Positions 45,005 to 46,015 of a DNA stretch of 64,000 nucleotides are shown here, piece after piece. The DNA comes from Campylobacterota bacterium (lineage in GTDB: Bacteria > Campylobacterota > Campylobacteria > Campylobacterales > Sulfurimonadaceae), in contig JBFMGG010000007.1 of the NCBI GenBank assembly GCA_040752835.1, forward strand, positions 124,001-188,000. The letters are read 5' to 3'. Each line of letters begins with the position of its first letter. The stretch's first letter is position 1. The notes under the pieces were generated by a model, which saw only the letters and a program-made list of their open reading frames with translations, was not told the DNA's origin and did not search any database. The position numbers and the translations under genes were made by a program.

Positions 45005-45040
45005 AGCTAACAAATCTCTATGCACCAAGCCCACTTCCCT

Positions 45041-45066
45041 CGTTCCCAACGTCCTCGTTGGGAATG
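45041..45066. repeat. Palindrome of the dispersed CGTTCCCA type
   Basis: TTCCCAACG-TCCT-CGTTGGGAA forms a perfect 9-bp stem with a 4-nt loop, flanked by CG and TG. This type of sequence recurs in many proteobacterial genomes as a short mobile or REP-like element. Confidence 0.7.
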
Positions 45067-45348
45067 CAGAGGCTCGCCTGATTAAACCCTTGTCACTTTT
45101 TTTGTTCCGGCAAAAAAAGTAACCCAAAAAACCTCGTCTTTCGAGCAAATCGCTCGCGCGACTTTCGGCAGAGCCTTCGCGCGCGGCTTTCAAGGATGCT
45201 CGAAAGACCGATTGCTATCTATTTTCGCGTTCCGCGAAAATCATTCCATGAAATTGTATTTGCCCCCAAAACACACCCAGAGCCAGGCCGCTCGCCGAAG
45301 GGTGGAGCGGCCGGTTAAGCGACCTGTTGCGGGGGCGCTTTTCTTTTC

Positions 45349-45377
45349 GTTCTTTTCTTTACTAAAAAGAAAAGGAC
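45349..45377. repeat. A/T-rich hairpin upstream of higBA
   Basis: GTTCTTTTCTTT-ACTAA-AAAGAAAAGGAC: 12-bp stem with one mismatch and 5-nt loop. It resembles a common proteobacterial repeat of the same C/T-rich composition. It ends 14 nt before the higBA -35 box. Confidence 0.65.
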
Positions 45378-45391
45378 AGATAAATATGTCG

Positions 45392-45420
45392 TTGACAATA
45401 TTATCGTATTGCGATAATAT
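45392..45420 (+). promoter_or_regulatory. higBA promoter and autoregulatory operator
   Basis: TTGACA (45392-45397), 17-bp spacer, TAATAT (45415-45420). A perfect inverted repeat ATATTATCG-TATTG-CGATAATAT (45398-45420) fills the spacer and the -10, the expected HigA-binding site. The higB ATG at 45427 is 6 nt past the -10, so its mRNA is likely leaderless. Confidence 0.75.
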
Positions 45421-45426
45421 ATCCAC

Positions 45427-45708
45427 ATGATAAAATCGTTCAAGTGCAAAGAGACGGAAAAGTTGTTCTGGCAAAAACCCAGCAAAAAGTTCCCTGCCAA
45501 TCTCGCGATGCGTGCCAAAATCAAACTCGACATGCTCGATGCCGCACAAGAAAAACAGGATTTGTGTATCCCCCCGGCCAATCATCTCGAAGAGTTGAAG
45601 GGGAGCCTGTCGGGATTCATGAGCATCCGCATCAACAACCAGTTTCGGGTCGTATTCCGCTTCGACGGCAAAGATGCGTACGATGTCCATATCACAGACT
45701 ACCACTAA
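45427..45708 (+). CDS. higB: HigB/RelE-family mRNA interferase toxin
   Basis: 93 residues. RelE-fold text with 'LKGSLSGFMSIRINNQFRVVFRF' and the final 'DVHITDYH', typical of HigB toxins that cut mRNA in the ribosome. Toxin-first order is diagnostic of HigBA. No Shine-Dalgarno precedes the ATG, which lies 6 nt from the -10 box, so the toxin is probably translated from a leaderless mRNA. higA follows after 10 nt. Confidence 0.9.
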   Translation: MIKSFKCKETEKLFWQKPSKKFPANLAMRAKIKLDMLDAAQEKQDLCIPPANHLEELKGSLSGFMSIRINNQFRVVFRFDGKDAYDVHITDYH

Positions 45709-45718
45709 AGGAAAAACG

Positions 45719-46015
45719 ATGAAAGAAATCCGACCTTCCACCCATCCGGGTATCATCCTCAAACTCGAATTCGCCGAACCGCTCGGCCTGACACAGGCAC
45801 GGATGGCGGATGATCTGGGAGTAGGGATCAAAACCCTGAGCGAGCTGTATAACCAAAAACGGGGAATCAGCGCGGTGATGGCGCTCAAGCTCTCCGAATA
45901 TTTCGGAACGACTCCGCAGTTTTGGATGACGCTGCAGGATAATTTTGATCTTTATCAAGCCTATGTGCAGGAAAAAGAGTCCATTCAAAAAATCAAAAAG
46001 CTTCAAGTAGCCTAA
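45719..46015 (+). CDS. higA: HigA antitoxin, XRE-family
   Basis: 98 residues from the ATG at 45719, with an AAAGGAAAA ribosome site; a longer frame overlaps higB and is rejected. HTH-XRE domain with 'STHPGIILKLEFAEPLGLT', 'MADDLGVGIKTLSELYNQKRG' and 'YFGTTPQFWMTLQDNFDLY', the HigA signature. It neutralises HigB and binds the palindrome in the shared promoter. Stronger translation signals than higB fit antitoxin excess. Confidence 0.92.
   Translation: MKEIRPSTHPGIILKLEFAEPLGLTQARMADDLGVGIKTLSELYNQKRGISAVMALKLSEYFGTTPQFWMTLQDNFDLYQAYVQEKESIQKIKKLQVA

Follow-up and report, generated by a model that had tools for sequence, protein, structure and literature searches.

An old question posed by toxin-first type II toxin-antitoxin (TA) modules is how the antitoxin can be kept in excess when transcription and translation both reach the toxin first. 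The higBA module considered here occupies positions 45392 to 46015 of a 64,000-nucleotide stretch of DNA (the window; contig JBFMGG010000007.1, positions 124,001 to 188,000) from a Sulfuricurvum-like campylobacterote (assembly GCA_040752835.1). It probably combines a single, operator-overlapped sigma-70 promoter with a leaderless higB and a higA led by a Shine-Dalgarno (SD) sequence, so that fewer molecules of HigB than of HigA would be made from each mRNA. HigBA, leaderless mRNA and leaderless TA operons in Mycobacterium tuberculosis are already known. In the literature searched, which omits most subscription papers, no description as such was found of a higB, a toxin or an antitoxin that is leaderless, nor of a conserved contrast between a leaderless toxin and an SD-led antitoxin in toxin-first modules.

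The closest solved relatives of both proteins belong to the GraTA complex of Pseudomonas putida, the nearest structure to HigB being GraT (6f8s chain B). GraTA is likewise toxin-first and has a palindrome in a promoter that is repressed by its antitoxin; GraA binds and represses at TAACGTTA in the graTA promoter region (PMC6393540). It differs in that the N-terminus of GraT is disordered, and its authors mention a native SD ahead of graT.

Leaderless starts are often used in Caulobacter crescentus, which has a toxin-first HigBA and a member of the PF05015 family. A 2026 paper maps the transcription start of its higBA to 3281528, the higB start codon being at 3281524 (PMC13384398); subtraction of these published positions gives a leader of 4 nt, although the authors do not term it leaderless. 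Unlike the module described here, C. crescentus higBA is also repressed by LexA, and its two genes overlap by 7 bp. Transcriptional and translational higB reporters differ in this organism, for which the authors hold an unknown post-transcriptional regulator responsible (PMC13384398). The founding member, HigBA of plasmid Rts1, shares protein family, gene order and a terminal DYH motif. It differs upstream: on an IncT plasmid that encodes an identical HigB, the DNA before higB has operator repeats and a longer leader and does not appear leaderless by eye.

Three further systems are instructive. In the autorepressed acuR-acuI-dddL operon of Rhodobacter sphaeroides, the leaderless first gene, acuR, is transcribed like the downstream genes and translated far less (PMC3017554); AcuR is a TetR-type regulator and not part of a TA pair, and lower translation was measured there, whereas for higB it is deduced. 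In M. tuberculosis, 37 TA pairs have a primary start site, and 32 of these pairs are leaderless (PMC3898074), but so are a quarter of the genes of this host, and in the passages that describe them the pairs are handled as a class, with no contrast between leaderless toxin and SD-led antitoxin. Finally, in the toxin-first hicAB of Escherichia coli and toxTA of Haemophilus influenzae, an antitoxin-repressed promoter (P2) lies at or inside the toxin start, with toxTA P2 beginning approximately 30 bp within toxT (PMC6957337). In both systems the toxin comes from a second, upstream promoter, whereas the HigBA module here carries none.

Anatomy of the higBA module

All of the features described here lie on the forward strand. 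The -35 hexamer TTGACA (45392 to 45397) is separated by 17 nt from the -10 hexamer TAATAT (45415 to 45420). An inverted repeat with perfect 9-bp arms and a loop of 5 nt, ATATTATCG-TATTG-CGATAATAT, extends from 45398 to 45420 and fills both the spacer and the -10, as the first-pass annotation had described. Its left arm lies at 45398 to 45406, and its right arm, at 45412 to 45420, overlaps the -10. In dinucleotide shuffles, this AT-rich stretch yields a 9-bp arm 34 times out of 5000 (0.7%). By itself, a perfect repeat is thus modest evidence that must be backed by conservation. It is: the core of the repeat, TTATCG-N5-CGATAA, is retained in relatives (as TTATCG-N5-YGATAA), making the repeat the probable HigA operator. 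The overlap of operator and promoter is conserved in relatives too, and the palindrome to which GraA binds in graTA is a related one (PMC6393540).

Six bases, the discriminator ATCCAC (45421 to 45426), separate the -10 from the higB ATG at 45427, and no SD is present. The energy of the duplex with the anti-SD is +0.3 kcal/mol for higB, compared with -5.6 kcal/mol for higA, whose SD sequence AAAGGA (45707 to 45712) overlaps the higB stop codon (45706 to 45708); this contrast had been noted earlier and is upheld.

Sigma-70 transcription typically starts approximately 7 nt past the -10. Promoter scoring places two overlapping candidates at this site, TAATAT (12.4) and, two bases earlier and with a spacer of 15, GATAAT (45413 to 45418; 12.5). 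Because of this ambiguity of 2 nt the predicted start is a range, 45425 to 45427, and not a single base, corresponding to a higB leader of 0 to 2 nt. No other promoter of similar score is found within 50 nt, where every other position scores 6.1 or less. Thus, of the original proposal of a leaderless toxin mRNA behind a single -10, the second part has to be relaxed, while a leaderless or near-leaderless mRNA is backed by comparison across many phyla (below) and by the 4-nt leader in Caulobacter (PMC13384398).

The borders of the module are sharply set. Three close copies, two of them from the same genus (L002 and L283) and a third (L031), lie in unrelated surroundings, and in blastn the DNA homology to each of the three begins precisely at 45392, where TTGACA starts, and stops with the last base of the higA stop codon, at 46015. 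Identity is 89-94% over the 36 bp preceding the ATG and falls to 22-44% over the 64 bp farther upstream. The signals for toxin expression that belong to the module must therefore all be within about 35 bp, with no leader or second promoter of its own, and a start site well upstream, which would have told against a leaderless mRNA, becomes unlikely. Judged by these borders, HigBA is a self-contained, intact module of 624 bp.

The proteins are those of an intact, ordinary HigBA operon with a GraT-like HigB. HigB (45427 to 45708) is a RelE-fold toxin of 93 amino acids, which matches PF05015 over residues 3-93 (73.2 bits against a cut-off of 27, E 2.5e-20), and its C-terminal DYH (D91 Y92 H93) and R74, a basic residue of the active site, are invariant across 22 aligned homologues. 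Conservation in the family alignment sets in at Met1-Ile2 and lasts to the DYH, so that translation very probably does start at 45427, and a shorter or longer product need not be invoked. HigA (45719 to 46015) is a helix-turn-helix antitoxin of 98 amino acids, which matches TIGR02607 (85.8 bits against a cut-off of 47.7, E 1.4e-24) as well as GraA and HigA chains in the PDB. The toxin gene precedes that of the antitoxin behind one promoter with an operator-like palindrome, the layout of a type II HigBA. There is one such copy in this genome; among named relatives the closest, 89% identical, is from a Sulfuricurvum metagenome-assembled genome.

Genes of this genome do not share the layout in general, since none of 43 large open reading frames in the window has a leaderless-like promoter. 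An SD is present at one of the first starts of 37 out of 47 large open reading frames in the window, a count that is biased upward as several starts were tried for each.

Some side observations concern the sequences around the start codon. The toxin mRNA would begin (45427 to 45435) with AUGAUAAAA, and AAA is the third codon in many homologues; HigB cuts A-rich codons, and it is conceivable that the toxin cleaves its own mRNA close to the 5' end. Directly upstream of the module, and outside it, is a dispersed intergenic repeat (45040 to 45385), which ends as a hairpin arm, AAAAGAAAAG, immediately before the module. A copy near full length, 86% identical over 339 bases, lies on G000:C6; C4 has a partial one, and there is a further match of 26 bases. 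Between 45386 and 45430 lies an SD-led upstream open reading frame (uORF) of 14 codons, the TGA of which overlaps the higB ATG (ATGA). It was considered as a conserved coupling device and rejected, being absent from all three close copies and having its SD within the dispersed repeat. The uORF is probably incidental, yet could couple higB translation to readthrough transcripts at this locus.

Promoter and translation signals among HigB relatives

HigB loci were gathered from Campylobacterota genomes, a GTDB genome collection and viral contigs. A promoter was termed close when the -10 of the best-scoring sigma-70 promoter within 50 nt ended 5-8 nt short of the start codon; Bacteroidota, whose promoter motif differs, are excluded from the promoter counts. 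Close promoters were found at 59 of 82 non-redundant genomic loci, compared with approximately 6 expected from shuffles, and these loci span more than a dozen named phyla. The same is true of 34 out of 62 viral or prophage loci not closely related to the genomic set. Dependence of the finding on one lucky locus is ruled out by the two surveys.

The position of the promoter is sharply defined. TTGAC or TTTAC ends 29-34 nt ahead of the start codon at 78 of 144 loci, compared with 0-3 at any other offset, and the spacing between -10 and start codon peaks at 6 nt. A pyrimidine is preferred at -1 when the base at +1 is a purine. Of the 45 loci with the 6-nt spacing, 36 have a pyrimidine directly ahead of the ATG, whereas the remaining five positions of the discriminator hold one in 52% of cases (p 1.4e-4); this bias supports transcription starting on the A of the AUG.

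The translation signals, called by duplex energy with the anti-SD, are just as uneven. An SD precedes higB at 5 of 69 loci, which is the shuffled level, and higA at 59 of 69 (Wilcoxon p 4e-12). SD sequences before higB are rarer where the promoter is close (8/103) than where it is distant (17/37; Fisher p 1.4e-6, kinship not being fully controlled), as is expected if the promoter assignments are correct. The first-pass annotation, which dealt with this locus only, overlooked that the layout is family-wide rather than locus-specific, and also that some HigBA relatives are leadered. Collectively, these data suggest that the layout is a family trait, conserved as a means to keep toxin synthesis below that of the antitoxin.

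Several points weigh against this conclusion. About a quarter of the genomic and nearly half of the viral HigB relatives lack a close promoter. Promoters and operators may be inherited together, in which case the loci are not independent, and the anticorrelation between SD and promoter distance is not significant once corrected for relatedness: the tree-based test, which relies on a protein of only 93 amino acids, offers too few supported independent pairs (5). The founding Rts1 higBA and a relative on an E. coli plasmid appear leadered, as do some phage copies, and so the claim covers a subfamily and not everything named HigB. In Streptococcus pneumoniae, a leaderless gene was unaffected by an added SD (PMC6212727), and weak leaderless translation is therefore not to be assumed. 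Moreover, a translational fusion to Caulobacter higB is high in lexA mutants, so that its start is not inert (PMC13384398).

Two groups of relatives depart from the common layout. At six Bacteroidota loci (L037, L045, L051, L054, L060 and L109) an operator-like palindrome keeps its distance to the higB start, while the promoter motif TAnnTTTG, identified by eye, lies approximately 30 nt upstream and leaves a short leader; here the position of the operator is conserved and that of the promoter is not. At two Spirochaetia loci, L064 (2973-3010) and L086, the -10 abuts the higB ATG, and the start is predicted inside higB, yielding antitoxin only, like toxTA P2. These may work as antitoxin-only promoters.

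Competing explanations for the layout

It could be argued that the layout has no translational purpose. Short mobile cassettes would place the promoter beside the first gene, and leaderlessness would be a by-product of where the operator sits. The module is indeed minimal at both ends, and the operator stays near the ATG even in Bacteroidota, whose promoter motif lies farther upstream. However, equally small cassettes behave otherwise. Among antitoxin-first Phd/YefM cassettes of the same phylum, none of 25 has a close promoter, and 22 of the 25 retain an SD before the first gene, with a leader of approximately 20 nt. Viral HicA-first cassettes mostly retain SD leaders as well (23/32, with a close promoter in 7/32), and higA, within HigBA itself, keeps a strong SD. 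Compactness with no translational purpose is thus considered unlikely.

The same comparison bears on gene order. Toxin-first BrnT cassettes are mixed, with close promoters at 7 of 23 loci in Campylobacterota and 15 of 36 on viral contigs. Most Campylobacterota HicA loci sit behind another gene and are unusable as a test, but the viral HicA loci, being mostly SD-led, led to the idea that toxin-first order is the sole cause of leaderlessness being dropped as a general rule. As predicted from promoter position, GraT-like HigBA modules typically express the toxin leaderless; BrnTA modules do so often and HicAB modules in a minority of cases, and the antitoxin-first control shows no instance. A large share of the BrnT starts (L141-L170 in Campylobacterota, L300-L350 in viral contigs) have a TATAAT-like box 5-8 nt ahead and no SD.

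A second alternative is that the promoter serves the antitoxin only, as P2 does in hicAB and toxTA, with essentially no toxin made from it and HigB produced by readthrough of a leadered transcript from upstream. The start of toxTA P2 within toxT (PMC6957337) and the two Spirochaetia loci with starts expected inside higB provide precedents, and readthrough RNA at the present locus would bear the SD-led uORF whose stop codon overlaps the higB ATG. The second, upstream promoter of the hicAB/toxTA type is nevertheless lacking, as there is no homology past the -35 and no similar-scoring promoter within 50 nt. Since homology stops at TTGACA, the module brings no upstream promoter along, and toxin production would hinge on chance neighbours; the uORF is missing from the close copies; the 6-nt peak in spacing retains the AUG on the mRNA; and in Caulobacter a higB fusion with the native start site is active once derepressed. 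We regard an antitoxin-only promoter as quite improbable.

That the functional mRNA is a leadered transcript from a promoter farther upstream, from which the SD-led uORF could couple translation to higB, is very improbable, given that no comparable promoter lies within 50 nt upstream (the next best scores 6.1), that homology stops at the -35 and that the DNA lying upstream consists of a dispersed repeat with no relation to other higBA loci.

Toxin and antitoxin dosage

The favoured explanation, a leaderless toxin and an SD-led antitoxin behind one operator-overlapped promoter, builds on the module borders, the promoter position, the operator palindrome, the SD contrast and the conservation of the layout, all established from the sequence and by comparison. 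It would operate as follows. RNA polymerase would start the bicistronic mRNA at, or approximately 2 nt from, the higB AUG, a start predicted for this organism from its promoter. The toxin would be translated from a leaderless, 5'-terminal AUG, where ribosomes would seldom initiate without the help of an SD, while higA would be initiated from its own SD overlapping the higB stop. The toxin gene higB would be translated less than higA, for which acuR is a measured precedent. HigA would then outnumber HigB per mRNA, bind it and neutralise it, and would also occupy the operator across the spacer and the -10, shutting the promoter; binding and repression at this palindrome are presumed.

The leaderless-toxin/SD-antitoxin layout offers a simple, testable answer to the old question of antitoxin excess, encoded in approximately 35 bp. 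In Caulobacter, weak leaderless initiation is a possible and simpler reason why transcriptional and translational higB reporters disagree. A further idea, put forward as a long shot, is that the leaderless toxin acts as a sensor of ribosome state in toxin-first HigBA and many BrnTA modules: when SD-dependent initiation fails, toxin would still be made while antitoxin falls. If this were true, the module would fire without prior proteolysis under initiation-factor imbalance, 30S damage, anti-SD cleavage or kasugamycin-like stress. The layout would also tie the toxin:antitoxin ratio to the mode of translation initiation, providing a route to activation apart from proteolysis of the antitoxin.
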